A stretch of 26,646 nucleotides of DNA from a virus, in the IMG/VR virus record IMGVR_UViG_3300010389_000104, positions 1 to 26,646 of that record. One strand, written 5' to 3'. Position 1 is the stretch's first letter. The number at the start of each line of letters is the position of its first letter. Below are positions 3,728-26,646 of the stretch, in pieces. Below the pieces are notes generated by a model that did no database searches, was not told where the DNA came from, and saw nothing but the letters and a program-made list of their open reading frames with translations. The translations under genes and the position numbers were made by a program.

Positions 3728-6700
3728 ATGATACAAACTGGGTTTGAGCAGAGGGTAAAGGTTCAGCAAATTATTGACAGCCAACTTCCCGAATTTTTAC
3801 GTTCTGAAAGTCCAAAGTCTGTTGATTTTTTAAAGCAATATTATATTTCTCAAGAGTACCAAGGTGGTCCATCGGACGTTGCCGAAAACTTAGACCAATA
3901 CTTACAGTTAGATAATTTCACACAAGAAGTAATTTCAGGACAGACTACTCTGTATTCTGGTATTTCTTCAACTACTGACACCGTACAGGTATATTCTACT
4001 AAGGGATTCCCCAAAGAATATGGTTTGTTTAGAATCGGTGATGAAATCGTCACCTACACTGGAGTTACCACTAATACATTTACTGGATGTATTAGAGGAT
4101 TCAGTGGAATTCAAACCTATAGAACCGATTTAAATTCCGAAGAATTAGTCTTCAAAAAGACATCACAGTCTTCACACACCGCAGGTGATACTGTACACAA
4201 CTTGAGTGCACTGTTTCTCAAGGAATTTTATAAGAAAATAAAATATACCTTCACTCCAGGTTTGGAGGATACTGATTTCGTATCAGATCTTGATGTTAAT
4301 AACTTCATCAAAGAGTCTGGATCTTTATATAAAGCAAAAGGAACAAAAGAATCTTTCAAGATTCTCTTTAATGTTCTCTACGGAGTTACTCCAACCGTAG
4401 TAGATCTTGAAAGATATCTGATCAAACCGTCTGATGCAGAGTTTCTCAAGAGAGAAGTTGTAGTTGCCGAAAGAATTTCTGGGGATCCAAACAGATTAGT
4501 TGGACAAACAATTGTCAATTCTGCAGACGAAAATACCAAAGCTTCAGTTTCTGAGGTAGAAATCTTTACAAGATCTGGAATCAGCACTTTTTATAAGTTA
4601 AACCTTTTTGTTGGATATACTGATAGAAGTACTGTTGAAGGAACTTTCAAAGTCCAACCAAAAGTAAAGTCGATTACTAAGGTTTCTGCTGGATCATCAG
4701 TTATCACTGTAGACTCAACAGTTGGGTTTGGATCAACTGGAGTTTTAGTATCTGGAAACAATGTAATCACTTATGGTGAGAAAACTTTAAATCAGTTCTT
4801 ACAATGTAGTGGAATTGATGAAGAAATTTCTGTTTCTTCAGAAATAAGAACTAATGAAGTATTCTTTGGATATGAAGACGGAGATATTAATAAGAAAGTA
4901 GAGGTTAGAGTTGGCGGTGTTCTTTCCGATTTTGAGACGGTCGGCAATCCATCGTTGGTATCTGAGGGACAGGTACTGTATGTCAAGAATGTTGGTGAGA
5001 TAATTAAAAATCCAGAAACTGATAAAACATACAAAGAAATTTTTGCAAATTCTTGGATCTATAATACTACAGTAAGATTTGAAGTTGATGCAATATCTGG
5101 ATCTACTTTTACTCTTAAGTCTTCAATTGAAGAATCAAGCCTTAAAGTTGGTGATGTTGTAGACATTCTTCAGGGATCTACACAAACCATATCCCAAGCG
5201 GATGTGACTGTTTCATCAATCAACGCTACAAACAAGCAAATAACACTTGCAAATCTTGGAGGATTTACTCCAGCTGCTGGCGTTGATTATACTATTAGAA
5301 GAAAATTAAAAACCGCATCTAGTTCTGTAGTCCCAGTCGCTTATAGCGGAGTAACGTGTGATATTCAAAACGTATATAATGAGGATGATGAAAACTTCTA
5401 TGTTGCATCCAATTCTTTACCATCATATCAAATCACAAAAGACGTAAAGAAAGCAACCATCAGTTCTGCAAGTGGAAGTGCTTTAGAGGGATTTAGCAAC
5501 TCCACATTAAAGTATTCGATCCTATCATTTAGTTCAAGTGTACCATTTGTAACTGGTGATGAAGTTCAATATACAGCAGAGATTGATGTTCTTGATGGAC
5601 TTTCTGAGAGAACGTATTACGTTAAAGTTCTTTCTCCAGATAACAAAATTAAACTGTATGAGTCACCATCTTTTATAGAAAGTGATACTCCTATTGAATT
5701 CGCTTCAACAAATTCAACCGGAGCACATACATTTACATTAGCAGTTCAAAAGAGTGGACTGATACACCCACAAAGACTTCTTAAGAAATTTCCATCCTCT
5801 CAAAACATTAAGAATGGAACTGGTGTAAAAACTGTCCCTGGAAGTACAGGGATGCTGATAAATGGTGTAGAAATTTCAAACTACAAATCTTTTGATAAGA
5901 TTTACTATGGACCTGTTAGCAAAGTTGACCTACTGAGTGGTGGATCTGATTATGATGTGATCAACCCACCAACTGTGACTCTCGGAAACCCTGTTGTTAG
6001 TGGTGGTACTACATCTCTAGTAAGACCTGTAATTAGAGGATCTGTACAATCAGTTCAAGTTGATCCTCAAGACTTTGATATTAGAAGGGTTCAATCTGTC
6101 ACAATTAGCGGTGGAAATGGAACTGGTGCCATTCTGCAGCCAGTTTTAGATACCAGATATCGTGAGATTGAATTTGATGCAAGAGAAACAACAGATGGTG
6201 GTGGCATTGATATATCTGATGATACCATTACCTTCTTAAAGGATCACAAACTCAGAAATGGTGACAAGATTGTATATAATAGAAATGGAAATTCTGAAAT
6301 TGGTATAGGATCTTTTAATGCAAGTAATACTGACCAAACTTCAACTTTACATAGTGGATCTGCATATTTTGCAGAATTAGTAAATACATCCTCAATCAAG
6401 TTATATCAAACTTTCGATGATTATAACAGTGGCATTAACACGGTTGGATTTACAACTTCAGTAACTCAGGGTGTTCATAAGTTTAGACTTTTTGATGGTA
6501 AGAAAACACTGAGAAGTATAAAGGTCATCAATCCTGGAAGTGGTTATGAAAATAGAAAATTAATCGTACAACCAACAGGGATTTCTACAGTTTATAATAC
6601 CATTACCTTTGAAAACCATGGATTCAATGATGGTGATATTATTACTTACACCACGGATGGTACAGAAATTGGTGGTCTTACAGGTGGAAATGAGCATTAT

Positions 6701-9700
6701 GTATTGAAACTTGATAATAATACTTTTAGATTAAGTGATCCTGGTGTTGGATCAACGGCATTTGTTGATAATTACAATAGAAGAAAGTTTATCAAGTTTA
6801 GTTCTAGTGGTGTTGGACATCAAAACTTTGCATACAAAGATATCACCATTACCGTTAATGCTGAGTTTGATGGTGTAACTGGAGTTATAACTGCAACACC
6901 ACAGATTAGGGGAGAAATTGTCGATTTATACCTCTATGAAAATGGAACTGGTTATGGTTCCACCATTTTAAATTTCCATAAGAGACCTAACGTCACATTC
7001 AAATCTGGAAAAGATGTTGAACTGAAACCAATTGTCAATGGTGGAAAGATCGTCAGTGTTCAAGTTACTAATGGTGGATCTGAGTACACAAGCGCACCAG
7101 ACTTAACTGTTGTTGGATCTGGAGTTGGAGCTAAGTTAAGAGCAGTTGTTACCAATCAAAAAGTAAGTTCTGTAGTCATATTGAACGGTGGTGCTGGATA
7201 TGATGCAAACACATCTATCACGGCAACTTCTGTAGGATTAAATGCTAATGCTAGAGCATCTATCAGAGACTTAACTGTAGACAACTACGGTAGATTTGGT
7301 CAGGAACTTCTTTCTGAGGACACCCAAGGTCTTAAGTATAATCTTGTTGGATACAGTACTCAAATCGGAGGATCAACTTTTGGTGATGATGGAACATCAC
7401 ACTCACCAATTATAGGTTGGGCTTACGATGGTAATCCAATTTATGGTCCATATGGATATGCAAATGCACTGGATGTTAATTCCAGTGTGGTTCAATTAAC
7501 AACTGGATATGTTCAGTCCACTTCTAGTGTAACTGATAGACCATCTGGATTTGATGCTGGATTCTTTGTCGATGATTACAAGTTTAACAATTCTGGAAAC
7601 TTGGATGAATATAATGGAAGATTTGCAAAAACACCAGAATTTCCAAATGGTGTTTATGCTTACTTTGCTGGAATTTCTACTGACTTTGCAACCAATTCTG
7701 TAAAATCACAATTCCCCTACTTCATTGGTAATGCATATAGGTCTTTACCAGCAACACAAGATGTTGATCAGACTTTTGACTTTAATAATTCAAGGTTGAG
7801 AAGAAATACATTCCCATACAGAACGGAGGATCTCACCTCATCTAATGATTTTATATCTGAACCAAATGAAGTTTTAGTACAAAAAGCAACTGTTGAATCT
7901 ATAACAAAAGGTTCTGTAGATGACTTTGATATTAGAGAACCTGGATCTGGATATGCAGTGTATGATTTGGCAACCTTTGATAACACCGACACCAATGGTG
8001 GTGGATTGGGTGCATATGTACAATCTATAACTGGAAAAAATATCGTAGAAGTTTCCACTTCAGTTCAAACACTTGCAGGATCTTTAGTTCTTAGATCAAA
8101 TGACAATGAGATAGTTGTTGAGACAACCGAACCTCACAACATCCAAAATGGTAATAAGGTCGCCATTTCTGGCGTTTCAACTTATATTAAAGGTCTGACT
8201 AATACACATACAGTTGGTGTTTCTTCAGAAATTTTATATCTCTCTGCAGCAGTTGCAAGTAATGCAACTTCTGGATTTGTAACTGATATCTATGTTTCAA
8301 ATGTTCCAAAAATAATCTCTGTTGGTTCTACGATAGCAATTGGAACTGAGAGAATGTCAGTTCTCAATGTATTCCCAGATACAAAAGTTTTAAGAGTTGC
8401 TAGGGGATTATCTGGAGCTGGTCATACAGTATCCACAAAAATTGCAGAGGTTAGCAACACCTTAACTATCCAACTCAATACCAATAGTTTTGATTCAAAT
8501 GCAAACAGAAAGGTATACTTTAATCCAGAACAGCAAGTTGGAATAGGACAAACAGCGGGTATTGGAGTTTCCGCAATATATGCAGTTGGTTTGAACGCAA
8601 AATCAATTTCAATTCCAACACAGAGCATATATCTTCCTAATCATCCATTTAAAACAAATCAGCAGGTGATACTGAGGGCAGTATCTGGAGCATCAAAAAT
8701 CTCAGCATCAAATACTGAAACCAGCACTGAGTTTGATATTCCAGATTCAACCTCTCAAACTCTCTTCGCAGTTAACAAAGGTAGAGATTACATTGGTCTG
8801 TCTACTCAGGTTGGAGTGACGACAAATGGACTATACTTTAGATCATTTAGTCCAAATGGGGATAGTGATGACTACAAATATTCTTTGGAGTCTATATTCA
8901 ATCAAGTTACTGCAAAAGTACAAAAGATTACGTCCACAGTGTCAGTTTCTACTGATCATGGTTTGAGTGATGGTGACACAATTTCACTGTCCATAAAACC
9001 AAATCTTTCTGTAGGAATCGGAACTTCTACCGCAATTTTTGTAAAATACAATGCTGATGAAGGGAAACTGTTGGTCAATCCAACAGGATTTACATCCACT
9101 GCTGTCGGAACTGCAACTAGTGAACTGACAATTACCTCTCATGGATTTAAGACTGGAGAAAAAGTCTTCTACAATTCATCGGACTTGATTGTTTCTGGTT
9201 TGCAAACTGGACCATATTATGTTTATAGAGTTGATGATGACACCATTCAGTTGTCTGAAACATATAATGATGCTATCTCTATTCCACCAACAATTGTAAG
9301 TTTTGGATCTACTGGTGGAGCTGGTCAAGAATTATCTAAGGTTAATCCTCAAATACCAGTCGTTAAAAATAATAACCTGGTATTTAACGTAGCAGATTCA
9401 TCTCTTAATGGTTACAAATTCAAAATCTTCTACGATAAGGAATTTAAAAATGAATTGATTTCCGTTGGTGGAACAATTACGACTGCAAGTGTATCTGGAG
9501 TTGGTACAGTTGGAGTTGGAACAACTGGAGTTGGAACAGTTACGTTGAATTATAGCGATGAACTTCCATCAAAACTTTATTATACATTAGAAAAATCTGG
9601 TTATATTAGTAGTTCTGATACAACTGTAGCAAATTACTCCGAAATACTCTTTGTTGATAGTTCTTATAACGGTTCATATACAATTTCTGGAATTGGTTCA

Positions 9701-12700
9701 ACAACATTCCAGGTAGCACTTAAGGAGGTTCCTGAAAGACTTTCATATTATCCTTCTCAGGTTGATCAAGCAAAATATTCAACAACTTCAGTTACAGCAA
9801 GAGGTGGTGTTAATTCTCTGAGAATTACATCTGGTGGATCTAATTACAAGAAGTTGCCAGAGTTTGTAAGCATCGCCTCTACAGATGGTGTTAATGCTGA
9901 CATTGTACCACAATCAAACACTATTGGTAATATTAAAGAGGTTGTCATTAATGATCAAGGATTTGATTTTTCTGCGGATAAAACTTTAAGTCCTGAGGTC
10001 TATATTTCACCAAATCTTCGCTTAACCGATAGAAATACAATAACATCTGTTAGTGTTGTATCTGGAGGACAAAATTATGTCTCGGCACCAGATTTGGTTA
10101 TTGTAAATCCAATTACTGGAGTTGCTGTAGAATCTGGAACACTAGAAGCAGTTTTACAGGGATCTTCTATTACTGCGGTTAACGTCTTACAGTCACCAAA
10201 AGGACTAAGTGAGGTTAAGAACAAGGTATATGCAATCAACAACAGTAATGGTGTTGGGATTGAAAGTTGCACATCATCACCAGCTGGCATAGTCACTTGC
10301 AGACTCCAAACACCTATTCTAGGATTCTCGACTGCACCATTCGCAGTTGGTGATAGAGTATTCGTTGAAGGAATACAAAAACTAGGAACCTCTGGAGACG
10401 GATTTAACTCCGCAGACTATCAATATCAATTCTTCCCAGTTACAAAGTTCACAAATACAAACCCAGCAGAACTTGAGTTTGATATGTCTGGCATTGCTAC
10501 TAATGCTGGAATTGCAGTTACAACTCAGAATGCATATGCAACTCTGATAAAAGAATCGAACTATCCAACATTTGATGTTGTCCAATCTGCTCTTGAATTT
10601 AATGATGGTGAGAAAATTTTAACTCTTGAAAATTCCATTTATGTTGAACGTGATTTAATTGTCACTGACAATATAAATGATCTTCTTAAGGTTTATGGAT
10701 CATATGATCTTTCTGTTGGTGATAGGTTAATTGGTAAAATATCTGGAACTGAAGCAACGATTAAAGAAGTTGAAGAAAATAAGGCATTCTTTGTCGTAGA
10801 TTATGCATTGAGAACTAATAAGGGATGGGATAAAGAAACTGGAGTTTTAAACTCTGATTTCCAAGTTACACCAGATAATGATTATTATCAGAATCTATCA
10901 TATACAGTTAAGAGTCCAATAACTTATGATGAGATGATAGATCCAGTCAACAGACTCTTACATACATCTGGACTTAAGAACTTCTCTGATACTGGAATTA
11001 CAAATACCACATCTGTTGGTGTTGGCACTACAGTTACCGCAACCAGTGTTGCACTAATTGACATTATTAGTGAGAACAGAGTTGATACTGTAAAATATTT
11101 TGATTTTGGACTTGATGTAGACACTCAAAATGGGTCTTCTAAGTTTGTCAAACTGGAAAACAAAAAGTTAGCAGATTATATTAAGTGTGATACTAACAGA
11201 GTTTTGATCTTGGATGATATAAAAAATCTATTTTCTAATAACGATGGAGAAACAGATTTACATGTTGATCTTGACTCAATATCCATTACAGATGGATATG
11301 CTAGGTACTTAATTCAAATTAGAAGCACTGACAATCTTGAGACACAGGTTTTAGAAGTTGTTACTGTTCCATCACAGAATGACAACTTCTTGACTGTAGA
11401 AAAAGCATCTATTACTAGCGGAAGAGCAAATAATAACAATATAAACACAACACTCAAATTGGGTGATGTTGAAGCTAATACTGATGCCCTTGCGTTGAGA
11501 TTTACCCCACTTGAACCATTCGATACTGATTATGATATCAAAGTTTTGAAGAATGAATTTAACACTACATTAACAGGAATAAACACTAGAACAATTGGAT
11601 TTGTTGACCTTGTAGGTGTTACCACAACGGTTGGAGTTGGTACAACAGTTTCTCTGATTACTAGAGAAGTTGATACAACTGAAGGAATTTTTGCTAATGT
11701 TGAGATTTTCAATAATGTTACGAAAGACCGATCAATTGTAGAACTTTACTTAGATCATGATGGATCAGATACATTCATATCAGAGTATTACTTTGATAAC
11801 GATGAGACATCTGTTGCATCCGATAACTTTATTGGAACCTTTAGAGGAAGCATCAGCTCTGGTGTTCTTTCATTAGACTATACAAACAGCACCGAATCTG
11901 AATCAGTTTTAGTAAGAACAAGAGCGGTTGGATTTGGCAGCACATCTGTTGGTGTTGGAACTTACAGATTCTTGGCATCATCACAACCAGCAGAGAGTGA
12001 AAATTCTGGTAGACTTCAAAGTAATTTTGAAACAACCACAGGAATTTCTACACCAATTAGTGTTTCTAAGAACGATGTAACTACAATTAAATCAATCGCT
12101 AGAGTAAGTTATGGTAATACCTCGGCGTTGCATCAATTGCTTGTAACGCACGACAATACCTTTGCATACACAATGCAATATCCATTCCTTTCTATTGGAA
12201 GTACAAGTGGAATTGGAACATTTGGATCAGAACTTAGTGGGTCCGATTTAGTCCTCAAATTCTATCCAGATGCGGAAATTGCAGCAAATCAACCAGTAAT
12301 AGTTCAAACATACAGTGAAGTTATCCAAACTGAGAGAGATTTGAACAATGTTGCAGAGGTGCTGACTTACGGTCCAGTAAACGAAGAGTTGTTTGTTTCT
12401 GGTTATAACTCAAGAAATGGTGAAAGAAGTAATGCTACGGCATTTGATTTAACCCACGAAACAATCCCAGTTTTTGCTAAAACATTTAATCCTGCATCTT
12501 CATCTGTCCTTGATCAAGGAACTGGAATCTTCACAATTGATGATCACTACTTTAACACTGGAGAAAGATTGATCTACGAAGCTGGATCTACTTTCACTGG
12601 TGTTGCGGGAACTGTTATGAACATTGCTGGATCTTCTGTTGGATTATCAACCGAAGTTTATGCAATTCGCATCAATCCAAACCAGTTTAAATTGGCAACT

Positions 12701-15628
12701 AGCGCAGCAAATGCAAGTGCTGGAACTGGAGTTACTTTTACAGATCCAGGTGGTGGAAATGCACATACTCTTGAAATGTATAAGAAACTTAGCAAGTCTC
12801 TCATTTCAATTAATGGTGTTGTACAAAGTCCAATTGCATTTACACCGATTAATTATGATTTGACTAATCATGGTGGTACGGTCTCTGCTGCAACTTCATT
12901 CTTCTCATTGACTGGTATTTCATCGATTCTTCCTGGAGATATCCTAAAAGTTAATGAAGAATATGTAAAAGTTGAGGGTATTGGTATTGGAACAACATCC
13001 CTTGGTCCAATTACTGGAGTAGGAAACTTCAATCTGGTAAAAGTTGAAAGAGGATTCGTAGGATCTTCAGCAACTGATCACACTGACGGTGATAATGCTA
13101 GAGTTTATATTGGATCATATAACATCGTCAAGAGCAAGATTCACTTCTCAGAACCACCAAGAGGTGATCTTGGACAGTTGATTGGTTTAGATAATCTGAC
13201 TAAGACTAAATCTTCATTTGGTGGAAGAGTTTATCTGAGACAAAATTATGATACTAACCAGGTATTTGATAACATATCCAAATCATTTACTGGCATTGGT
13301 CAAACATATACAGTAACTGTTGGTGGAATCAATACCACAGGAATTGAGACTGGAAGTGGAGTTCTGTTCATTAATGACATATTCCAAACTCCAACAACTG
13401 ATAACAACGTTGGAAACAACTACGACTTTATCCAGGGATCTGCAGGAATCTCTAGCGTCGTATTTACTGGAATTACGTCATCTAATGCACAATTGATTCT
13501 TTCTGAAACTGACATTAATAAGAATCAATTACCAAGAGGTGGAGTTATTGTTTCACTTGGTTCGACTTCAGGTCTTGGATTTGCTCCTCTTGTAGGTGCT
13601 GCTGTTACAGCAGTTGTGTCTGGTGGTGCAATTCAATCAGTTGGTTTAGGATCAACAGATATTCATGGATCTGGTTATCGTGGAACAGTTGCTATTGCTA
13701 TCACAGAATATGGTGGATCGCCAGGAAGTGGTGCAAATGTTACTGCTACTGTTGGTGCTGGTGGTACTCTGATCTTCACAGTTGCATCTGGAGGATCTGG
13801 ATATACAAATCCAATCGTTAGCATTCCTTCACCATCATATGAAAATCTACCAATTATTGGTGTTTCTCGCCGTGGAATTGGACCTACAACAGACACTGGA
13901 GAAGGTTTACTGCTCACCGTTGATGTTGGTCCAGTATCTACTACTGGAATAGGTTCAACACTATTTGAAGTTTCATCCTTCAAAATTTCTAGACCTGGTT
14001 ATGCATTTAAACCTGGTGATAAATTTAAACCAGTTGGATTGGTTACAGACGCTGGTTTGGCAGCACCACTTGCAGATTTTGAACTTGAAGTTCTTGATAC
14101 TTTCTCTGACTCTTTTGCTTCCTGGACGTTTGGTGAGTTGGACTTCATTGATCCTATTGCGTCACTGCAAAATGGATCAAGAACTCGATTCCCACTCTAT
14201 TATCAGGGGGAACTTTTAAGTTTTGAAGTTGGTGATGGGGACGCTGAAATTGACCTGAATGCTGTTCTTCTGATCTTTGTTAATGGTGTTGTTCAGGAAC
14301 CAGGATCACATTACAACTTCTCTGGTGGCACATCGTTTACATTCACCGATGCACCTAAGGCAGAGGATCAAATTTCCATCTTCTTCTATAGAGGAACTCG
14401 TGGAACCGATAGCTTCTCAGTTGAAATCATCGAAACAATCAAAGAGGGTGATGAACTGCAACTTATCAAATATGGTGGAGTAGACGCACAACAACCAAGA
14501 ACTATTGTTGGTATTGTTACTTCCGACTTACTTGAGACTAACCTTTATAGTGGAATTGGAGTTAGTGATACGACTGCAAGACCATTTAACTGGATCAAGC
14601 AAAAAGTTGATAAGTTTATTAACAATGATTTTGTTTATAAGTCTAGACCATCTATCGAACCACTTGTTTATCCAACAGCAAGAATTATTGGTGACCTCAC
14701 ATCATCATCTGGAGAAATCTTCGTTGATGATGCACAGTTCTTCAACTATGAGGAAAATGAATCTTCAATCGTTATTAGCAGTGTAGACGCATTAATTATC
14801 AATCAAGGTGCTGCTGATCCAGTTGCTGCAGCAATCACCGCAACGGTTTCTGCTGCTGGAACAATCAGCGCATTGACAATCACTGATGGTGGGTCTGGTT
14901 ATGTTGGAACTGCTATTACCGTTTCCATCGCAGCACCAAAACTGGTTGGAGTTGGAGTTGGAACTACTGCTTCTGCAACAATTCCTGTTTCTAACGGATC
15001 TTTAAGTGGAACTGCTAATATCATAAATCCTGGATTTGGATACACATATACTAATGCACCTAAGGTCTTAGCACCAACAAACAATGTTTCATATGAAAAT
15101 GTAACTTCTATTGATATTGTACAAGGTGGTAGTGGAATTGTAACTGGTATCACAACAGTTGCTGGAAGTGGTGGAACTGGTACTTTGGGTCTTAAGTTCT
15201 TCCTGAATGCCTCCAGTGCTTCAGAATATAGTAACATCAACAACGGTTATCCTATCTTGATCGTAGACACGATAGTTGGATCAGGTGTAACTTCAGTTGA
15301 TGGTCCAGATTCTGCTGTTGTTGGAATTGGCACAACATTTGTTGATAACGTTTATATTGTTAGGTCGTTCTCTTCAGCAGCAGCAAATGCAGAGTTTGTG
15401 GCTGACATTCTTTCAACTACAGCGTCCACAACAGAAATACCTGCAACAGGATTTGTTACTTGTGGAAGATTCTCTTGGGGTCGTCTCGCTGGAATTTCTA
15501 GATCTTCCTCGCCAATTTCAATTGGTGTAACTGGATTAACTTTCTCAGGACTTAGCACCTATCCAACAATCCAAAGAAGATCCTTTGGACATAGAGATAC
15601 TGGTGCCCTTAGAAACGATCTAGGATAA
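3728..15628 (+). CDS. Giant baseplate-associated structural protein with gp7-like N-terminus and YHYH-like domain
   Basis: A single open frame of 3966 residues. The first ~340 residues resemble the C-terminal part of T4 gp7: YKAKGTKESFKILFNVLYG (201-219) and RLVGQTI (256-262) correspond to T4 segments that I recall as containing KG-x-x-x-SYKFLF-x-VLY and LVGQTI. Position between gp6 and gp8 also fits gp7. A YHYH-like domain spans about 1226-1313, with IIGWAYDGNPIYGPYGY (1228-1244), LDEYNGR (1292-1298) and YAYF (1310-1313). The rest is recurring modules: HxFxxGD-type units (marker residues about 611, 840, 964, 1470, 1639, 1744, 1805, 2940); SGGxGY units (742, 940, 1076, 1120, 1158, 1409, 2040, 2117, 3317, 3359, 3725, 3772); RGxxG units (123, 1559, 3108); and NGVVQ units (3029, 3216, 3519). 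No membrane or signal sequence. AGAGGG at 3716-3721 precedes the ATG by six bases. It is probably a wedge protein extended into a long outer structure; the roles of the modules are unknown. Confidence 0.8.
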   Translation: MIQTGFEQRVKVQQIIDSQLPEFLRSESPKSVDFLKQYYISQEYQGGPSDVAENLDQYLQLDNFTQEVISGQTTLYSGISSTTDTVQVYSTKGFPKEYGLFRIGDEIVTYTGVTTNTFTGCIRGFSGIQTYRTDLNSEELVFKKTSQSSHTAGDTVHNLSALFLKEFYKKIKYTFTPGLEDTDFVSDLDVNNFIKESGSLYKAKGTKESFKILFNVLYGVTPTVVDLERYLIKPSDAEFLKREVVVAERISGDPNRLVGQTIVNSADENTKASVSEVEIFTRSGISTFYKLNLFVGYTDRSTVEGTFKVQPKVKSITKVSAGSSVITVDSTVGFGSTGVLVSGNNVITYGEKTLNQFLQCSGIDEEISVSSEIRTNEVFFGYEDGDINKKVEVRVGGVLSDFETVGNPSLVSEGQVLYVKNVGEIIKNPETDKTYKEIFANSWIYNTTVRFEVDAISGSTFTLKSSIEESSLKVGDVVDILQGSTQTISQADVTVSSINATNKQITLANLGGFTPAAGVDYTIRRKLKTASSSVVPVAYSGVTCDIQNVYNEDDENFYVASNSLPSYQITKDVKKATISSASGSALEGFSNSTLKYSILSFSSSVPFVTGDEVQYTAEIDVLDGLSERTYYVKVLSPDNKIKLYESPSFIESDTPIEFASTNSTGAHTFTLAVQKSGLIHPQRLLKKFPSSQNIKNGTGVKTVPGSTGMLINGVEISNYKSFDKIYYGPVSKVDLLSGGSDYDVINPPTVTLGNPVVSGGTTSLVRPVIRGSVQSVQVDPQDFDIRRVQSVTISGGNGTGAILQPVLDTRYREIEFDARETTDGGGIDISDDTITFLKDHKLRNGDKIVYNRNGNSEIGIGSFNASNTDQTSTLHSGSAYFAELVNTSSIKLYQTFDDYNSGINTVGFTTSVTQGVHKFRLFDGKKTLRSIKVINPGSGYENRKLIVQPTGISTVYNTITFENHGFNDGDIITYTTDGTEIGGLTGGNEHYVLKLDNNTFRLSDPGVGSTAFVDNYNRRKFIKFSSSGVGHQNFAYKDITITVNAEFDGVTGVITATPQIRGEIVDLYLYENGTGYGSTILNFHKRPNVTFKSGKDVELKPIVNGGKIVSVQVTNGGSEYTSAPDLTVVGSGVGAKLRAVVTNQKVSSVVILNGGAGYDANTSITATSVGLNANARASIRDLTVDNYGRFGQELLSEDTQGLKYNLVGYSTQIGGSTFGDDGTSHSPIIGWAYDGNPIYGPYGYANALDVNSSVVQLTTGYVQSTSSVTDRPSGFDAGFFVDDYKFNNSGNLDEYNGRFAKTPEFPNGVYAYFAGISTDFATNSVKSQFPYFIGNAYRSLPATQDVDQTFDFNNSRLRRNTFPYRTEDLTSSNDFISEPNEVLVQKATVESITKGSVDDFDIREPGSGYAVYDLATFDNTDTNGGGLGAYVQSITGKNIVEVSTSVQTLAGSLVLRSNDNEIVVETTEPHNIQNGNKVAISGVSTYIKGLTNTHTVGVSSEILYLSAAVASNATSGFVTDIYVSNVPKIISVGSTIAIGTERMSVLNVFPDTKVLRVARGLSGAGHTVSTKIAEVSNTLTIQLNTNSFDSNANRKVYFNPEQQVGIGQTAGIGVSAIYAVGLNAKSISIPTQSIYLPNHPFKTNQQVILRAVSGASKISASNTETSTEFDIPDSTSQTLFAVNKGRDYIGLSTQVGVTTNGLYFRSFSPNGDSDDYKYSLESIFNQVTAKVQKITSTVSVSTDHGLSDGDTISLSIKPNLSVGIGTSTAIFVKYNADEGKLLVNPTGFTSTAVGTATSELTITSHGFKTGEKVFYNSSDLIVSGLQTGPYYVYRVDDDTIQLSETYNDAISIPPTIVSFGSTGGAGQELSKVNPQIPVVKNNNLVFNVADSSLNGYKFKIFYDKEFKNELISVGGTITTASVSGVGTVGVGTTGVGTVTLNYSDELPSKLYYTLEKSGYISSSDTTVANYSEILFVDSSYNGSYTISGIGSTTFQVALKEVPERLSYYPSQVDQAKYSTTSVTARGGVNSLRITSGGSNYKKLPEFVSIASTDGVNADIVPQSNTIGNIKEVVINDQGFDFSADKTLSPEVYISPNLRLTDRNTITSVSVVSGGQNYVSAPDLVIVNPITGVAVESGTLEAVLQGSSITAVNVLQSPKGLSEVKNKVYAINNSNGVGIESCTSSPAGIVTCRLQTPILGFSTAPFAVGDRVFVEGIQKLGTSGDGFNSADYQYQFFPVTKFTNTNPAELEFDMSGIATNAGIAVTTQNAYATLIKESNYPTFDVVQSALEFNDGEKILTLENSIYVERDLIVTDNINDLLKVYGSYDLSVGDRLIGKISGTEATIKEVEENKAFFVVDYALRTNKGWDKETGVLNSDFQVTPDNDYYQNLSYTVKSPITYDEMIDPVNRLLHTSGLKNFSDTGITNTTSVGVGTTVTATSVALIDIISENRVDTVKYFDFGLDVDTQNGSSKFVKLENKKLADYIKCDTNRVLILDDIKNLFSNNDGETDLHVDLDSISITDGYARYLIQIRSTDNLETQVLEVVTVPSQNDNFLTVEKASITSGRANNNNINTTLKLGDVEANTDALALRFTPLEPFDTDYDIKVLKNEFNTTLTGINTRTIGFVDLVGVTTTVGVGTTVSLITREVDTTEGIFANVEIFNNVTKDRSIVELYLDHDGSDTFISEYYFDNDETSVASDNFIGTFRGSISSGVLSLDYTNSTESESVLVRTRAVGFGSTSVGVGTYRFLASSQPAESENSGRLQSNFETTTGISTPISVSKNDVTTIKSIARVSYGNTSALHQLLVTHDNTFAYTMQYPFLSIGSTSGIGTFGSELSGSDLVLKFYPDAEIAANQPVIVQTYSEVIQTERDLNNVAEVLTYGPVNEELFVSGYNSRNGERSNATAFDLTHETIPVFAKTFNPASSSVLDQGTGIFTIDDHYFNTGERLIYEAGSTFTGVAGTVMNIAGSSVGLSTEVYAIRINPNQFKLATSAANASAGTGVTFTDPGGGNAHTLEMYKKLSKSLISINGVVQSPIAFTPINYDLTNHGGTVSAATSFFSLTGISSILPGDILKVNEEYVKVEGIGIGTTSLGPITGVGNFNLVKVERGFVGSSATDHTDGDNARVYIGSYNIVKSKIHFSEPPRGDLGQLIGLDNLTKTKSSFGGRVYLRQNYDTNQVFDNISKSFTGIGQTYTVTVGGINTTGIETGSGVLFINDIFQTPTTDNNVGNNYDFIQGSAGISSVVFTGITSSNAQLILSETDINKNQLPRGGVIVSLGSTSGLGFAPLVGAAVTAVVSGGAIQSVGLGSTDIHGSGYRGTVAIAITEYGGSPGSGANVTATVGAGGTLIFTVASGGSGYTNPIVSIPSPSYENLPIIGVSRRGIGPTTDTGEGLLLTVDVGPVSTTGIGSTLFEVSSFKISRPGYAFKPGDKFKPVGLVTDAGLAAPLADFELEVLDTFSDSFASWTFGELDFIDPIASLQNGSRTRFPLYYQGELLSFEVGDGDAEIDLNAVLLIFVNGVVQEPGSHYNFSGGTSFTFTDAPKAEDQISIFFYRGTRGTDSFSVEIIETIKEGDELQLIKYGGVDAQQPRTIVGIVTSDLLETNLYSGIGVSDTTARPFNWIKQKVDKFINNDFVYKSRPSIEPLVYPTARIIGDLTSSSGEIFVDDAQFFNYEENESSIVISSVDALIINQGAADPVAAAITATVSAAGTISALTITDGGSGYVGTAITVSIAAPKLVGVGVGTTASATIPVSNGSLSGTANIINPGFGYTYTNAPKVLAPTNNVSYENVTSIDIVQGGSGIVTGITTVAGSGGTGTLGLKFFLNASSASEYSNINNGYPILIVDTIVGSGVTSVDGPDSAVVGIGTTFVDNVYIVRSFSSAAANAEFVADILSTTASTTEIPATGFVTCGRFSWGRLAGISRSSSPISIGVTGLTFSGLSTYPTIQRRSFGHRDTGALRNDLG
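9496..9540 (+). repeat. Three tandem 15-bp units coding GVGT(V/T)
   Basis: Units at 9496-9510, 9511-9525 and 9526-9540 read TGGAGTTGG-W-ACA-N-N and differ from each other at three positions or fewer. They encode the run GTVGVGTTGVGTV around residue 1930 of the giant. Similar GVGTT stretches recur in the same protein (near 11015, 11630, 11945, 14950), so this looks like a slippage-prone linker. Confidence 0.75.
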
Positions 15629-15630
15629 GT

Positions 15631-15638
15631 TATAAATA
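15631..15638 (+). promoter_or_regulatory. T4-type late promoter, perfect TATAAATA
   Basis: An exact TATAAATA lies three bases after the stop of the giant gene and 19 bases before the gp8 ATG. This would give a fresh late transcript for gp8 and the genes behind it, so they need not depend on read-through of an almost 12-kb gene. Confidence 0.75.
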
Positions 15639-15656
15639 TAGAAAAAAGCTAGCACG

Positions 15657-17204
15657 ATGGCGGCAATTGTAACAGATCAGTTTAGAATATTAAATGCGGG
15701 AAATTTTGTAGATTCCGTCACCAATACTTCTAATTCATATTATGTTTTTGTAGGACTAGCAAACCCAACTGCCAGTGGATTTGGCAAGTCTTCCTCATGG
15801 GATACTGATACTCCAAATCCAATTGATAATTTTGATTATCAGGGTTTTGTTGGTGACAACATGTCCTTTGGTAAAAAAATAACTTCTTCAAATGTTAGAA
15901 GGGTTGTTAGAAGAATTGATTGGACAAGAGGAACTCGTTATGAGATGTACAGGCATGATTATAGTATAAACAACTTGTCACCAATCACAAAGTCCGCAAG
16001 ACTTTATGATTCAAACTATTATGTAATGAATAGTGAGTACAAGGTTTATATTTGTGTTGATAATGGATCATCTGGGATTTCCACAACTGGAAATGCATCA
16101 CTGGATGAACCAACTTTCACTGATTTGGAACCATCAAGTGCTGGAGTGAGTGGAGATGGATATGTTTGGAAATATCTTTTTACAGTAACACCTAGTGACA
16201 TTATAAAATTTGACTCTACAGAATATATTACTGTCCCAAATGATTGGTCAACGTCAACAAACGCACAAATAGCTGCTGTTAGAGATAATGGCGATTCATC
16301 TGTAAATGAAAATCAAATAAAGAAAATTTATATTGATAACAGAGGACTTGGGTATTCACAAGGAACACACGAAGTTGATATTTTAGGTGATGGTAGTGGT
16401 GGAAAAGCAGTTCTCGATGTTGATAGTAGTGGAAGAATAACTAGCGCAGCAGTTTCTTCAGGTGGAAAAGATTACAGCTTTGGAATTGTTGATCTGGGAT
16501 CTATTAACTCAAACTCCACAACTAAAGCAAAACTTATTCCAATCATACCACCTTCAAAAGGACATGGGTATGATATCTACAGAGAACTTGGCGCTGAACG
16601 TGTCTTGTTATATGCAAGATTTGACGACTCTACCAAAGATTTTCCAGTAGACACAACAATTGCACAAATTGGAGTTGTAAAAAATCCAACGTCTGTTGGT
16701 TCAACATCAGTTTTTACTGATAATCAGTATTCATCTCTGGGTGCAATTAAGTTCTCTTCAACGACTGGAACTCTTGCCATTGGTGATGCAATCAAACAGA
16801 CAGTTACTGGTGGTGTTGCAAAAGGATATGTGTTCTCATATGACACTGAGACAAAAGTTTTGAAATATGTTCAAGATAGATCATCATTCTTAAATCAGAC
16901 TACTTTTGATCAAACTGATTATGTTGGAGTTTCAACTTCAGCAAAAGTTTATGAGTTTGCATCAAATGCAAATGCTGTAACTAGTACTGGTGGATTCTCT
17001 GGATCTGTTGATACTGGATTTACTGGTGTTTCTACAAATCCAACAGGATCAAAAATTATTGCACTTGGAGTCCAATTTACAAATGGAGTTGCTACTCCTG
17101 AGATAAATAAAGGATCGGGGGACATTATCTACATCGATAATAGACCTGCTATTTCGAGAAATTCTAGACAAAAAGAAGACGTTAAAATTATCCTGGAATT
17201 CTAA
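15657..17204 (+). CDS. 8: Baseplate wedge subunit gp8, enlarged
   Basis: Several landmarks match T4 gp8 as I remember it, in the same order: IVTDQFR (residues 4-10), RRIDW followed by GTRY (85-95), GDGYVWKYLF (166-175) with TEYITVP soon after, and the C-terminal signature GDIIYIDNRPAI (488-499) before the final KIILEF. T4 gp8 is 334 residues, this one 515. Much of the extra length lies between the middle and C-terminal landmarks and includes two SGGxGY-type units (IDNRGLGY ending at Tyr233, SSGGKDY ending at Tyr273), the same unit that recurs in both giant neighbours. In T4, gp8 dimers sit on the outside of the wedge and contact gp7, gp10 and gp6. A late promoter lies 19 bases upstream; I see no clear Shine-Dalgarno. 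The next gene begins three bases after the stop. Confidence 0.88.
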   Translation: MAAIVTDQFRILNAGNFVDSVTNTSNSYYVFVGLANPTASGFGKSSSWDTDTPNPIDNFDYQGFVGDNMSFGKKITSSNVRRVVRRIDWTRGTRYEMYRHDYSINNLSPITKSARLYDSNYYVMNSEYKVYICVDNGSSGISTTGNASLDEPTFTDLEPSSAGVSGDGYVWKYLFTVTPSDIIKFDSTEYITVPNDWSTSTNAQIAAVRDNGDSSVNENQIKKIYIDNRGLGYSQGTHEVDILGDGSGGKAVLDVDSSGRITSAAVSSGGKDYSFGIVDLGSINSNSTTKAKLIPIIPPSKGHGYDIYRELGAERVLLYARFDDSTKDFPVDTTIAQIGVVKNPTSVGSTSVFTDNQYSSLGAIKFSSTTGTLAIGDAIKQTVTGGVAKGYVFSYDTETKVLKYVQDRSSFLNQTTFDQTDYVGVSTSAKVYEFASNANAVTSTGGFSGSVDTGFTGVSTNPTGSKIIALGVQFTNGVATPEINKGSGDIIYIDNRPAISRNSRQKEDVKIILEF

Positions 17205-17207
17205 AAA

Positions 17208-20200
17208 ATGCCACAGAAAACGAACCTCAATATAAGCCCTTATTTTGACGATTTTGATAAGGACGATAATTTTTATAGGGTCTTATTTAAACCAGGATTT
17301 CCTGTTCAAGCAAGAGAATTAACGACTTTGCAGTCAATGCTGCAAAATCAAATCGAGTCTTTCGGAAGTCATATATTCAAAGAGGGATCCATGGTGATCC
17401 CTGGAAACATTAACTATGATGGCGAATATACTTGCATCAAGATAAACACAGACCATCTTGGTATTGATGTCATTAACTATGCTGATCAACTTGTAGGAAA
17501 AAGACTCAGAGGTCAAACCTCTGGGGTAGTAGCATCAGTAGACAAATATTTGGATATTTCCCCAGCAGAGGGAGTCACAGAATTTACACTTTTTGTAAGA
17601 TATCATCAAGCAGGAACATCCGAAGAGGTGTCAACATTCTCTGACGGTGAGGTATTAATTACCGAAGAAAGTTTTGCTTACGGAAATACTAACATAAATG
17701 CCGGTGATACTGTAGCAACTGTTGTTTCAGAGAATGCATCAGCAATAGGAAGCAATGTATCTATTGGAAACGGCGTTTACTTTATTAGGGGTACTTTTGT
17801 AGATGTTGCAGAGGATAAGTTAGTTCTTGATCCATACGCAAATACACCATCTTATAGAGTTGGTCTCAATATTTCAGAAGAACTGATAACGGCAAAGGAT
17901 GATTCATCCTTATATGATAATGCTAAAGGTTTTTCAAACTTTGCCGCACCAGGTGCAGATAGATTAAAAATATCTACTACTCTTACTAAAAAATTATTAA
18001 CAGATTTTGATGATAAAAACTTTGTAGAACTTTTAAGGATTGAAAATGGAGAGATCAAGAAGCTCCAAAATACTTCCGTCTACAGTATAATCAAGGATTA
18101 TTTTGCTAAGAGAACCTATGAAGAGTCTGGAGACTACTCATTAGGTAATTTTGGTATACAAATTGCAGAATCTCTCAACAATAGATTATCTAATGATGGG
18201 GTTTATTTTGAAGGTCAAGTAACAGATCAACTGAATACTCCTTCAGAAGATTTACTTGCCGTAAAAGTTTCTCCAGGAAAAGCATACGTTAGAGGATTTG
18301 ACGTTGAAACGGTATCCACAACTGTTCTCGATGTGGAAAAACCAAGGGATACTAGAACGGTCACTAATTCTCTAGTTCCTTTTGAATTTGGAACATTATT
18401 CAAAGTTAATTTTGCTGCTGGAACTCCCTTTATTGGAGTAAACAATAACTCAAACACAGTTGAACTTTATAACAGAAGAAAGACAACTCAGTTTGCAAGT
18501 GCAGGATCTGGAACAAAAATTGGTGAAGCAAGAATATATGCTTACAACCTGACCGATGCACCCTATGTAGATAATACTTCAGAATTTGATTTGTATTTGT
18601 TTGATGTACAAACATATACTGAAATCGTTGTTAATGAATCTCTGAATTCAACACAATGCCCAGCAACATCTTTTGTTGAAGGTGTAAGTAGCGGAGCATC
18701 TGGATTTGTTGTCACTGCAGCATCCAGCGCAACAATTATGCTGACTCAAACGTCAGGAACTTTTATTGCTGGTGAGCAGTTAAGAATCAATGGAACTACT
18801 GAGGTTTCAAGATCAGTTAGAACTGTAAAAACTTTTGGAATTCAAGATGTAAAGTCAGTATATCAAGATTCCACTAGTGTAAGTTCAGAATTAAAATCAG
18901 ATTTTTCTGGGGATTTAGTCTTACAGAAGAAAACAGCAACTAATTTTAGTCTTACTGACACAATTACAATTAGCACCGCTGGTATTGCAACAGTTCCTGG
19001 TAAGAATTTTGTTGGCATCAAGAGTGATGCAATCATTAGATATCAAACAAGTGACCTTGCAGTAGAGACATTTAACAGAGTTGAAAGTGTTTCATCTGAC
19101 GGATTGACACTTACATTGGCAGCGACTACTGATGTTGCTAATGTTTGTGATGGAAATCTCCCATCAACAACTCAAACAGTAAGTTTTAGTATTGGTGCTC
19201 CTATCGTAAAGGAAAAGGGTGGTCTCTACGCTCACTTAGAAGAAGATAATATTTCATCAGTTGGTCTTTCTGGATCTAACTTAACAGTTATAAAGCAAAT
19301 TAGAGAAAAGAGCACAGATGCCACTGGTCAACTTGGTCTAACTCCAAGCGAAACTGGAATTACAAGTTCAAGATATGAAACGTTTGATGCTGACAGATAT
19401 ACAGTAGTCTATTCCAATGGTGGTTATGAGGCATTAAGTTCCGATCAGTTCACTTTAGGAACAGATGGAAACATTACAATTACTGGACTGAATGCATCAC
19501 AATCAAGTAATGTTACTGTAAACACCACTGTCAGAAAGATTGGAATAAAAGAAAAGCAGAAAGAATATGTAAGAAGTGAGAAAGTTAATATAACAAAAAC
19601 ATCTGCTGGAGTTTCAACAACATTTACTGGACTGTCTACAAGTCCTTATTATGGAACAAGGATTGAAGATAGAGAAGTATGTTTGAATCTTCCAGACGTT
19701 GTTAAGGTGATTGGTGTATTTGAGTCACTCAACGCTTCAACCCCAGTTTTAGATTCCTTAGAATTCCCCTCAGGTCTTTCCCTAGACACAAGTTCAATTC
19801 TTGGTGAAAAGATCTTAGGAAAAGATAGTGGAGCTCTAGCACAAATTGTGACAAGATCTTCTGCTACAAAGGTTGAGATTGTCCGCTTAAATGATGCAGA
19901 GTTTGTACTTGGAGAAGCAGTTACTTTCCAAGAATCAAATATTCAGTCTGCAATTGCAACAATTAACAAAGGAAACTACCAAAACGTCACTTCACATTAC
20001 AAATTAGATTCTGCACAAAGAGAGCAGTATTATGACTACTCTAGAATTGTGAGGAAAAATGATGGATACATTCCATCTCGCCGTCTTCTGGTAATTTTCG
20101 ATTACTACCGTGTACCATCAAATGATCTTGGTGATGTCTACACTGTAAATTCTTACGACTCTGAGAGATATAAGTACGATATCCCAGTTTTACCAAGTGG

Positions 20201-23200
20201 AATTAGAGCATCTGATGTTCTTGACTTTAGACCAAGAGTCGCACAATTCTCATCAGAAACTTCTTCACCATTTGCTTTTGCTAGTAGAACATTTGCAACC
20301 GCAGGAACTAACCCTACGTTAGTTGTTGCACCTCTTGAGGGATCAATTGTAGATTATTCACACTACCTCCCAAGAATCGATAAAGTTTCTCTTGATAAGG
20401 AAGGAAACTTTAGTGTTACTAAAGGAGTATCTGCGGTTAATCCAAAACCACCTTCAAATGTTGATAGTGCAATGGAAATTGCAACCATTGAACTTCCAGC
20501 ATACTTATACGATGTTAAAGACGCAAAAATCACTATTACTGATAATAGAAGATACACAATGCGTGACATTGGAAAGATTGAAGATCGTGTAGAAACTCTT
20601 GAAACATTAACTTCTCTTTCTTTACTTGAACTTGATACTAAGTCACTTCAAGTAAGAGACGCTGATGGATTTGATAGATTCAAATCTGGATTCTTCGTTG
20701 ATGATTTCAAGGATACTGCAAGATTAGACTTTGGAGAGTCTGAAGTAAATGTAGATACAGCAAATAATGAACTCACAACACCAATTGATTTCTACTCACT
20801 GAAACCACAAGTAGCTTTAGAACCATCAATTAATCTTGATACTGCAGACTTCACACAGAATCTGCAACTTCTAGACTCAAACGTACAAAAAACTGGAGAC
20901 TTAATTACTCTCAAGTATACCGAAAAAACTTGGATTGAACAACCTTTAGCATCAAGAGTTGAAAATGTCAATCCATTTAATATGATTGACTTTACTGGTA
21001 GAATTGAACTTTCACCAGCCTCCGATAACTGGGTTAGAAATGTTTTTGTTGATGGTGGTGAAAGATCAATCGTTGGTGATTTCAATGGATCATACATTGA
21101 AACTATTAAAATTTCTTCAAATCCAGACACCCACATTAGATCCAGAAACGTTTCTTTCGCTGCTGGTGGATTAAGACCATTAGCGAGACATTATCAATTC
21201 TTTGATAGCGCAAGTGGAATTGATATTGTTCCTAAACTTATTGAAGTTACAATGTCATCTGGCGTGTTCAGCGTTGGTGAAAATGTACAAGGATTTATTA
21301 ATGGCAATAGATCAAGCGGTGGAACTAGAATCTTCAGAGCGAGAGCTATTCAACCAAACCATAAAACTGGACCATACAACAATCCCACAACAACAATTAG
21401 TCTCAATCCTTACGATAGATCTTTAACATTACCAACTACATATTCGGCATCTTCCACAGTATTAAACATTGATTCTGAGGCACTGTCTGATGAAGTGCAA
21501 GGTAAGTATTTTGGATATGTAACTAAGGGTATGGTTCTGGTTGGTGAAACCAGTGGCGCAGAAGCGACTGTGAGCGACGTTAGACTGGTAACTGATACTT
21601 TCGGTGATCTTGGTGGTTCATTCTTCTTCAGGGACCCCCTGTCGTCCCCTCCGCCACCGTTACGCTTTGAGACTGGTACTAGAACTTTCAAACTTACTTC
21701 TAGTAGCACAAATGCTAAACCTCTTCCTGGAAGTCTGCTAATCAGTAGTGGTGAAACAACGTACACTACAAGCGGAATCGTAGATACGTTTAGACAAACA
21801 AGGGTGATTGTAAGAAGACCACCCCCACCACCACCAGCACCTCCACAGAACAGAGGCGGTGGAAAAGATCCACTGGCACAGTCATTCACTGTTGATGAAA
21901 CTGGTGCTTTCTTAACTGCTGTTGATCTTTTCTTTGCAAACAAAGATGAGAATGAGAAGGTTACGATTGAAGTACGCACAGTTGAACTCGGTACTCCTAC
22001 CGATCAATTGGTCGATGATTTCTCAAGAGTAACTCTGGAACCATCACAGGTCAATACTTCTTCAGATGGAACTGTTGCAACTAAAGTAACATTCCCATCA
22101 CCAATTTACTTGGAACCATCTAAAGAGTATGCGATCGTAATTCTTGCACCAACCACAAACAATTATGAAACGTGGATTGCAAGAATGGGTGAAAGAACAG
22201 TAAACACCACTACATTACCAAATGCTGAGAGTGTAATTGTCACAAAACAATATGTTGGTGGAAGTTTGTTCAAGTCACAAAATGGCACAATCTGGACAGC
22301 AAGTCAATTTGAAGATTTGAAGTTTAAGCTTTATAAGGCAAACTTCTCAACAACTCCTGGAACTGCATACTTCTACAATACACCTTTAACTACTATTGAT
22401 GCCAACCTTCCAAAGTTAACTCTCGATCCAATCAAGACTTTACCTAGAAAGTTGAAAGTTGGAATCACCACAACCACAACGATGAATGCGGTTCTTCAAG
22501 TTGGTAGAAAGGTAAGTGATGGAACTGTTGGAAGACCATATGGATATATTGAGCAAGTTGGTGGAAGACTTAATACTGCATCAGTAACTTCTGTTGGTGC
22601 TGGATACAGTACTGGATCATTTGCAGATATCCCACTTTATACAATTACAGGATCTGGTAGTGGTGCTAGAGGAACTGTAGTTGTTACTGCTAACAAACTT
22701 TCTTCTGTTTCAATTACAACTCCAGGAAATGGATACGTAGTTGGTGATTTAGTTGGTGTTACAACTAGCAGTGTCATTAAGGGTAGCGGCGGTAGAGTAT
22801 CTGTAACAACACTTGATGGAAATGATACTCTGTACTTAACCAATGTTCAGGGTGAAGAATTTACTGCAAGTACAGATTTGGTAGTTTATGAGGGTTCAAC
22901 TGCGGTTTCTTATGCAAATACTGATATTCTGAGTTCCTCTGTAGTCAATTCTCTGTATGAAGGTAATGTGGTAGAGGTGAACCAATATGGACATGGTATG
23001 CACGCCACTAATAATATTGTTACCCTCTCGGATATTGAGCCAAATACAGTTCCATCCACATTAAGTGCAGATTTGTCTATTGGATCTGCAAGCATTTCCG
23101 TTGCAAATACATCAATCTTCGGAACATTTGAAGGTATAAGCACTTCCAGAGGATTTGTAAAGATCAACAATGAAGTTATCTTCTACGATTCAATTACTGC

Positions 23201-25301: not shown

Positions 25302-26646
25302 ATGGCCGCACCTGTTTTAAAGTTTAAAAGGGGAAATCTAACTGATTTACCCTCACTGGCAGTCGGTGAACCAGGTTTTACAATTGATAAGTTTGATCTT
25401 TATCTCGGCAGCAGTTCTGGAAACCAATTTGTTGGAAGTGGTAGATTCTGGTCCACAGAAACTGCATCGGCAGGTAGCGCCGTAAATATCTTCGAAGCTA
25501 CTGCCAACGGAACAAATAAAATCTCTCTGAAGGCACCCACAAGCATTGCTTCAGATATTGAGTTTATTTTCCCATCAGTTCAGGGTGCAGTATCTTCGGT
25601 ACTGACCAACGATGGATCTGGAAATTTAAGTTGGGCTAGTGGATCAGCAAACCCGATATTTACTGGTATTGCAACATTCAATACATCTCAGGTAGATGTC
25701 AATAGCACAGTAACTGTCTCTGGTATTACCACATTTGAAAGTACGGCAGATAATACTTTAGGTGATGTTAATACTGGTGCAGTTCAGATTGATGGTGGCG
25801 TTGGTATTGCCAAGAACGTCACAGTTGGTGCTGCACTTTCTGTAACTGGAGATGCTTACGTTGTCGGTCTCTCAACATTTGAAGGTGCAGTAGAATTCAG
25901 AGGTGGAACAATTAACCTCGGTGATTCTGCTAATGATAATATCGTCCTTGGTGGTGAAATTAATTCCAATGTTATTCCAAACACTGATGATGCATTTGAC
26001 TTAGGTTCATCATCTCAGCAATGGAGACACCTTTTCATTGATGGCACTGCAGAAATTGATGATCTGAATGTATCTGGTATTGCAACTATTACCGATGTTA
26101 ACGTTGGTGGTGCTGCAACAGTCAGTGGTGCATTGGATGTTAATGGTGGTGCCAATATCTCTGGTGGAGAAGTCACACTTTCATCTGCTACAGTTTCTGA
26201 CCTGACTGCTGGTCGTGTTGTTCTTGCTGGAACATCTGGAGCTCTCCAAGATGATGCAAGTTTAACTTATACTGATGCAGATGGTCTTACTGTTGCCAAT
26301 AGTGGAATTAATGTTACAGGAGTTTCCACGTTCTCGACAAATGTAGTCGTTGGTGGAGACATCCGCGTAAATGGCAATGACATTCAAGCATCTGATGGCA
26401 ATGCCAATATTACTCTCACTTCAAATACTTTAACCACGTTTGCTGGTGATATTAAAGTCACTGGTAATGACATTCAAGCATCTGATGGCAATGCCAATAT
26501 TACTCTCACTTCAAATACTTTAACCACGTTTGCTGGTGATATTAAAGTCACTGGTAATGACATCCAAGACAGTGGTGGATCGGCTGCTCTTACTTTTGAT
26601 GGTTCCACAAATGTAACGGCAAATAATAATCTTACTGTTACTGGAA
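25302..26646 (+). CDS. Tail-fibre-like protein (partial, 3' end outside window)
   Basis: The frame is open from ATG at 25302 to the window edge (448 codons). The N-terminus, LKFKRGNLTDLPSLAVGEPG then FTIDKFDLYLG (residues 6-36), has the R-[RG]-[GN]-x-LP-x-L-x-x-GE-[LP]-G-F-x-D layout seen at the start of many fibres and in the Mtd N-terminal domain family, and probably attaches the fibre to the baseplate. Behind it come short repeats around (V/I)SG(I/V)(A/S/T)TF, such as VSGITTFEST and VTGVSTFSTN, and the cassette DLGSSSQQWRHLFIDG (233-248), common in cyanophage fibres. An exact 90-bp tandem duplication codes for GNDIQASDGNAN repeats near residues 359-418. The receptor-binding tip lies outside the window, so host specificity cannot be judged. 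CTAAATA lies 22 bases upstream. Confidence 0.83.
   Translation, partial: MAAPVLKFKRGNLTDLPSLAVGEPGFTIDKFDLYLGSSSGNQFVGSGRFWSTETASAGSAVNIFEATANGTNKISLKAPTSIASDIEFIFPSVQGAVSSVLTNDGSGNLSWASGSANPIFTGIATFNTSQVDVNSTVTVSGITTFESTADNTLGDVNTGAVQIDGGVGIAKNVTVGAALSVTGDAYVVGLSTFEGAVEFRGGTINLGDSANDNIVLGGEINSNVIPNTDDAFDLGSSSQQWRHLFIDGTAEIDDLNVSGIATITDVNVGGAATVSGALDVNGGANISGGEVTLSSATVSDLTAGRVVLAGTSGALQDDASLTYTDADGLTVANSGINVTGVSTFSTNVVVGGDIRVNGNDIQASDGNANITLTSNTLTTFAGDIKVTGNDIQASDGNANITLTSNTLTTFAGDIKVTGNDIQDSGGSAALTFDGSTNVTANNNLTVTG
26376..26555 (+). repeat. Two exact 90-bp tandem copies inside the fibre gene
   Basis: Positions 26376-26465 and 26466-26555 are identical as read. A third, diverged copy begins at 26556 (AATGACATCCAAGACAG). 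The unit is 30 codons, in frame, and encodes NDIQASDGNANITLTSNTLT plus TFAGDIKVTG. Identity at synonymous positions points to a recent duplication. Confidence 0.92.

Follow-up and report, generated by a model that had tools for sequence, protein, structure and literature searches.

A short paired beta-repeat in gp7, gp8, DUF4815 and other virion proteins of T4-like cyanophages

The DNA analysed here (the window) is the complete IMG/VR record IMGVR_UViG_3300010389_000104, 26,646 bases in length, and is the baseplate cluster of a T4-like cyanophage. Three neighbouring genes within it, which encode a giant protein (probably gp7), gp8 and a DUF4815 (VrlC-like) protein, carry copies of a unit of about 40 amino acids (aa), the SGGxGY or GxGY module, whose converged consensus is GSITSVTITNGGSGYTVGPPTVIITTGIGTGATALVSPVI. 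Profile comparisons with phage relatives show these units to be homologous modules that are shared also with gp14 and other virion genes. We consider it probable that the unit is an old, promiscuous, three-stranded beta-repeat, lacking a curated model, that has expanded in the virions of T4-like cyanophages. It would often be used as a two-unit insert (about 80 aa) in virion proteins, and several old insertions, as opposed to a recent exchange among neighbouring genes, may have brought it into the different genes.

Homology and spread of the unit

That the same module occurs in three neighbouring baseplate genes had been proposed in an earlier note on this DNA. This is confirmed by cross-matches with phrog_438, a gp8-family profile from PHROGs that was built independently of the present analysis, and by cross-matches above the level of shuffled proteins with a unit profile trained on gp8 orthologues only. 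The public profile matches the giant at 7037-7240 (E 7e-9) and at 9773-9973 (7e-4), and the DUF4815 gene at 22554-22805 (6e-8). Likewise, searching the window with the gp8-trained profile recovered units in both of the other proteins, at giant residues 1106-1140 (23.2 bits), 2103-2126 (10.0) and 1145-1166 (8.2) and at DUF4815 residues 1788-1827 (9.4), whereas shuffled window proteins scored 1.7 bits at most. A multi-gene profile found the two units ascribed to gp8, around Tyr233 and Tyr273, as well as the two ascribed to the DUF4815 protein. The giant had been credited with about a dozen; this number is reached with partial and weak units included (about 12), but only seven are clear (Table 1).

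The sharing proved not to be limited to these three genes. A scan of eight whole phage genomes with 45 units yielded between 4 and 31 matches per genome, counts that are favourable where the profile includes units of the scanned phage, and all of the matches looked up lie in virion genes: gp7, gp8, DUF4815, neck gp14, neck gp13 (in S-CRM01), hub gp5, a tail or wedge protein of 617-619 aa encoded about 100 kb away, long tail fibres and a YadA-like fibre. Further units were found in Pelagiphage HTVC008M, S-CAM7 and P-HM1; Ochrobactrum phage OC has the unit in gp8 only. For example, gp14 of the near clade holds 3-4 units where the gene is complete, and phrog_460, the head closure Hc2 (gp14) profile of cyanophages, cross-matches the giant, gp8 and DUF4815 as phrog_438 does, although its protein belongs to the neck and not to the baseplate. 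No units were found in the scanned genomes of T4, KVP40 and KMI13, and these three empty T4-like genomes indicate that the profile does not match at random.

Repeats rich in Gly, Ser, Thr and Val might also come to look alike without common descent, by convergence or low-complexity bias. The units are indeed short and compositionally biased, and leave-one-gene-out profiles trained on window units only gave a weak signal, with gp8 and DUF4815 reaching 5-10 bits against shuffle maxima of 7-10, clearest when the third gene was predicted from two training genes. Because this signal lies near the shuffle maximum, the claim of homology rests on the relatives. However, composition-preserving shuffles seldom approach and never reach the best unit scores, the three T4-like genomes named above yield none, and strand, turn, Tyr and GxGA follow one another in a constant order across 40 columns. 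We therefore regard convergence as a very improbable account of the phage units.

No curated Pfam or NCBIfam repeat or domain model covers the unit in the 45 units, the three proteins or the bacterial carriers that were searched, and no Pfam Ig or FN3 family matched the 45 units or the three proteins at the unit positions. PDB sequence matches to BurrH and prolyl endopeptidase were rejected as chance. Literature searches with unit strings such as GSGYTSAP found no paper, and one on the DUF4815 baseplate found no relevant paper.

The unit also occurs in bacteria. A scan of prokaryotic genomes, whose query joined one Syn1 unit to one unit from another locus (L083) and hence biased the loci towards the consensus, returned 49 loci with 292 units and none in shuffles. 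Among the carriers are lipoproteins of the SusD family, multicopper oxidases and a tail sheath of phage type; other bacterial or archaeal proteins have as many as 17 copies in tandem. SusD membership was confirmed for two proteins (L116 and L120); in L116 the pair is inserted, such that the SusD match is about 80 residues longer than the model. These two, together with L130, L132 and L133, are SusD-size Bacteroidota proteins with a two-unit insert in the C-terminal half. A tail sheath protein from a Syntrophaceae metagenome-assembled genome (L105, 3548-4963) has two GxGY units between sheath domains. In genomes drawn evenly from two phyla the unit is rare, as 0 of 98 and 2 of 99 genomes besides the seeds match at E<=1e-6. 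SusD proteins (in pairs) and multicopper oxidases thus carry the same unit as the phage proteins but are cellular and, by family, surface or secreted; on profile similarity of short units, common descent of bacterial and phage units is likely.

Units follow their gene

The earlier note had read the shared module as copying between neighbours, in which units of gp7, gp8 and DUF4815 would move by duplication or gene conversion and neighbours in the same phage would be alike. The three genes are indeed adjacent in the window and also in S-SRM01, Sf-CH5 and P-SSM2, and their modules are homologous. However, no same-phage excess was detected: gp8-gp7 unit similarity was 1.041 within the same phage versus 1.027 between different phages (p 0.15, 71 phages), and the corresponding comparisons gave p 0.42 for gp8-DUF4815 and p 0.17 for gp7-DUF4815. 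No DNA repeats link units of different genes. For each window unit the best match in another gene comes from another phage or a bacterium and not from the neighbouring gene; in general, the closest unit of another gene very seldom lies in the same phage, and the unit is equally present in distant virion genes. In 432 of 445 cases, by comparison, the closest unit in another phage belonged to the same gene, a match that close relatives make easy. Units of different genes are, moreover, largely not intermixed in a tree of 153 units, where gene labels change 16 times versus 55 when shuffled (minimum 50) and phage labels 134 times versus 122. These comparisons show that units track the gene, not the phage, as modules inherited with their gene within each lineage would. 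Copying in recent times is already contradicted by the sequences, and we give the whole idea of neighbour exchange very little credence.

The sites of insertion point to considerable age. T4 gp8 (PF09215; PDB 1n7z, 5iv5) and a Klebsiella phage gp8 (9f4a) have the same scaffold flanking the module as the window gp8, but the T4-type protein is without the two-unit insert. T4 gp8 can be aligned with the window protein on either flank of the module, but between the flanks it has 48 aa (213-261) in place of 133 aa (196-329), and this difference of about 85 aa is the size of a two-unit module. Cyanophages and phages of Sinorhizobium and Agrobacterium have the module at one and the same gp8 site, which suggests that it is old in gp8. 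In DUF4815, by contrast with that fixed gp8 site, the pair sits at differing positions across lineages: after the FEDLKF segment in the window clade, before it in S-CRM01 and Syn1, and further downstream in OLIVR5, with no pair at the window's site in P-SSM4 and phiM12. These differing sites indicate several separate insertions.

One conceivable history is an old radiation, in which units were copied among virion genes in a cyanophage-like T4 ancestor and then inherited vertically. The separate DUF4815 sites are consistent with it, as is the rarity of the unit in the bacterial sample when set against the number of matches per scanned phage genome. On the other hand, the deep branches of the unit tree are poorly supported, acquisition from outside is equally possible, and for several phage units the closest score is to a bacterial unit, albeit one found with a consensus-like query. 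Such a radiation is therefore a tentative proposal. Similarly tentative is a broader picture, that of an undescribed prokaryotic beta-module which serves as a general virion building block of the Kyanoviridae, descended from few founders and carried by successive insertions into most proteins of the tail, neck and fibres, and which has also been plugged into bacterial SusD proteins, multicopper oxidases and tail sheaths.

Predicted fold and possible role

The gp8 and giant units share strand order and register in AlphaFold models. The gp8 module is among the better parts of its model, with a predicted local distance difference test (pLDDT) of 62-88 over residues 221-300, and consists of twice three strands (223-228/236-244/250-255 and 261-268/276-279/292-296). 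The model of giant residues 1035-1345 is confident only at 1095-1168 (mostly pLDDT 89-94), where the order is as in gp8: strand, GxGY turn, strand, GxGA turn, strand. Judging from the strand positions, the third strand of a unit is likely to pair with the first strand of the unit that follows. The module fold is met again among predicted viral structures: in structural proteins of cyanophages, in gp14 of the neck of metaG-MbCM1, and in other phages as well. A PDB structure search with the gp8 and giant models, which are only partly confident, gave no match at E<=0.001; gp8 had weak local matches to F1/V1-ATPase subunits (E 0.5-1), and Foldseek with the whole giant model against the PDB gave none. 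Small beta-modules of the Ig, FN3 and BIG2 types (phage Ig-like domains) occur as insertions or additions in many unrelated virion proteins. The unit resembles them in this distribution, but differs in its three strands, its length of about 40 aa, its usual pairing and its lack of a Pfam match.

Several points weigh against an old, widely inserted beta-repeat. Only 12% of the branches in the unit tree have support >=0.9, and with a deep order so weakly supported old copying between particular genes may have taken place. The short Gly-rich bacterial units could be convergent. Furthermore, the models as a whole have low confidence (mean pLDDT 53 for gp8 and 57 for the giant), and the predicted fold covers only the units of gp8 and the giant.

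What might the unit do? The earlier note had suggested a common surface of the wedge proteins that binds one partner or a ligand such as polysaccharide. A surface specific to the wedge was dropped once the unit had been found in gp13/gp14, gp5 and fibres, and its presence in bacterial SusD proteins and multicopper oxidases likewise fails to support one. More generally, adhesin-like units might bind one ligand class via the conserved Tyr. This residue is near-invariant (0.92 of the unit profile); in gp8, Tyr233 is invariant among 31 near-clade proteins and nearly so among 32 that include distant phages, whereas Tyr273 is invariant in 32 that include rhizobial phages. The unit occurs, besides, in fibres and in SusD, a glycan-binding family. 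However, it also occurs in neck gp13/gp14, hub gp5 and a tail sheath, which are unlikely glycan binders. The conserved positions, moreover, are the turn glycines, Ala/Pro, alternating hydrophobics and the one Tyr, beyond which no polar or aromatic set is conserved. Finally, conservation within the gp8 module (0.73) falls below that of the gp8 flanks (0.80-0.86), which does not suggest a key interface. A putative glycan-binding role via the Tyr is possible, but a single ligand class for all units seems unlikely.

The conservation pattern, confined to turns and core-like positions, is that expected of a structural beta-module, and the unit is most likely a structural spacer or decoration. Its job may be to supply rigid beta bulk on outer parts of the baseplate, neck and fibres; any contacts would then be particular to each gene, and no one ligand would be shared by all units. 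Motifs that adjacent baseplate genes have in common, then, need not imply neighbour exchange or a common binding site. The unit marks a large stretch, for the most part without annotation, of the very long gp7, VrlC/DUF4815, gp14 and fibre proteins. With a model of it, these proteins of common T4-like ocean phages could be annotated, and the role of the extra mass could be put to a structural test.

Genes and other repeats of the window

Of the named phages, Synechococcus phage S-SRM01 comes closest (73% over 8% of the query). The giant is probably gp7, judging by gene order, its PHROG match and its annotated cyanophage relatives, which are called gp7 or baseplate wedge initiator. Its residues 196-266 align with T4 gp7 730-790 in a stretch of 61 columns around an LVGQTI motif present in both (hhalign E 0.0017, modest alone), and its match to the gp7 family PF23786 (E 0.026) is under the cut-off. 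Membership of gp8 in its family extends across residues 1-478 (phrog_438, 7e-163), and the DUF4815 protein scores 208 bits to PF16075 against a curated cut-off of 30.

Table 1. Genes, units and domains of the window. Bits of units refer to the multi-gene profile unless another profile or search is named.
Feature	Positions	Strand	Match or remark
gp6	1813-3726		
Giant, probable gp7 (baseplate wedge initiator), 3966 aa	3728-15628	+	phrog_2885 3754 bits
Giant unit, aa 728-769	5909-6034	+	33.5 bits
Giant partial unit, aa 790-806	6095-6145	+	18.1 bits
Giant partial unit (NPGSGY), aa ~929-942	6512-6553	+	13.2 bits
Giant weak unit (GTGYGS), aa 1063-1105	6914-7042	+	in hand seed; orthologous unit in L085 20.0 bits in another search
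Giant unit, best match, aa 1106-1141	7043-7150	+	52.7 bits; 23.2 bits with gp8-only profile; pLDDT about 90
Giant unit, aa 1144-1179	7157-7264	+	36.0 bits
YHYH domain, following and overlapping third unit of best giant array	7169-7699	+	PF14240 2e-24
Giant unit, aa 1395-1434	7910-8029	+	37.2 bits
Giant unit, aa 2026-2062	9803-9913	+	34.8 bits
Giant weak unit (QGFDF), aa 2069-2103	9932-10036	+	only with seed profile containing it
Giant unit, aa 2103-2131	10034-10120	+	26.2 bits
Two giant weak units, aa 3305-3345 and 3346-3390	13640-13897	+	seed profile; 3350-3398 6.1 bits in another search; 3.9 bits with gp8-only profile
Giant unit, aa 3711-3752	14858-14983	+	17.6 bits; 20.7 bits in another search
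Giant partial unit (NPGFGY)	15014-15061	+	12.7 bits
gp8, baseplate wedge subunit, 515 aa	15657-17204	+	phrog_438 544 bits; PF09215 5e-14; T4 gp8 1n7z E 2.4e-18
gp8 unit 1 (Tyr233)	16311-16412	+	34.7 bits
gp8 unit 2 (Tyr273)	16431-16547	+	33.4 bits
DUF4815 (VrlC-like) protein, 2363 aa	17208-24299	+	PF16075 3e-61; PDB 9euf 1e-37
DUF4815 unit 1	22563-22685	+	32.9 bits
DUF4815 unit 2	22692-22808	+	29.0 bits
Fibre-like gene	window end		

The window holds other repeats and domains as well. The YHYH domain of the giant has a strongly conserved HSPIIGWAYDGNPIYGPYG in 29 relatives. A second repeat family of the giant, [TS]I..H-G-[FL]-x-x-G-[DE]-x-[IV]-x-Y, has about five copies, at aa 840, 964, 1744, 1805 and 2940 (6245, 6617, 8957, 9140 and 12545); it is often followed by YxVxxxDxxTFxL and partly adjoins GxGY strands. 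Short VGVGTT/GIGTT motifs occur at 11 places in the giant, from aa 333 to 3865, and are absent in gp8, DUF4815 and gp6, and a 34-nt repeat family lies in the giant's DNA near 9493-9541. In the DUF4815 protein, residues 1557-1701 give a sub-threshold PHR-domain match (E 0.0003, 21.8 bits, cut-off 23.6), and this PHR-like region is the one that aligns best with PDB 9euf. Finally, the fibre-like gene contains a 90-base tandem repeat (26372-26568; 2.2 copies at 98%), which, unlike the GxGY units, is a recent duplication.

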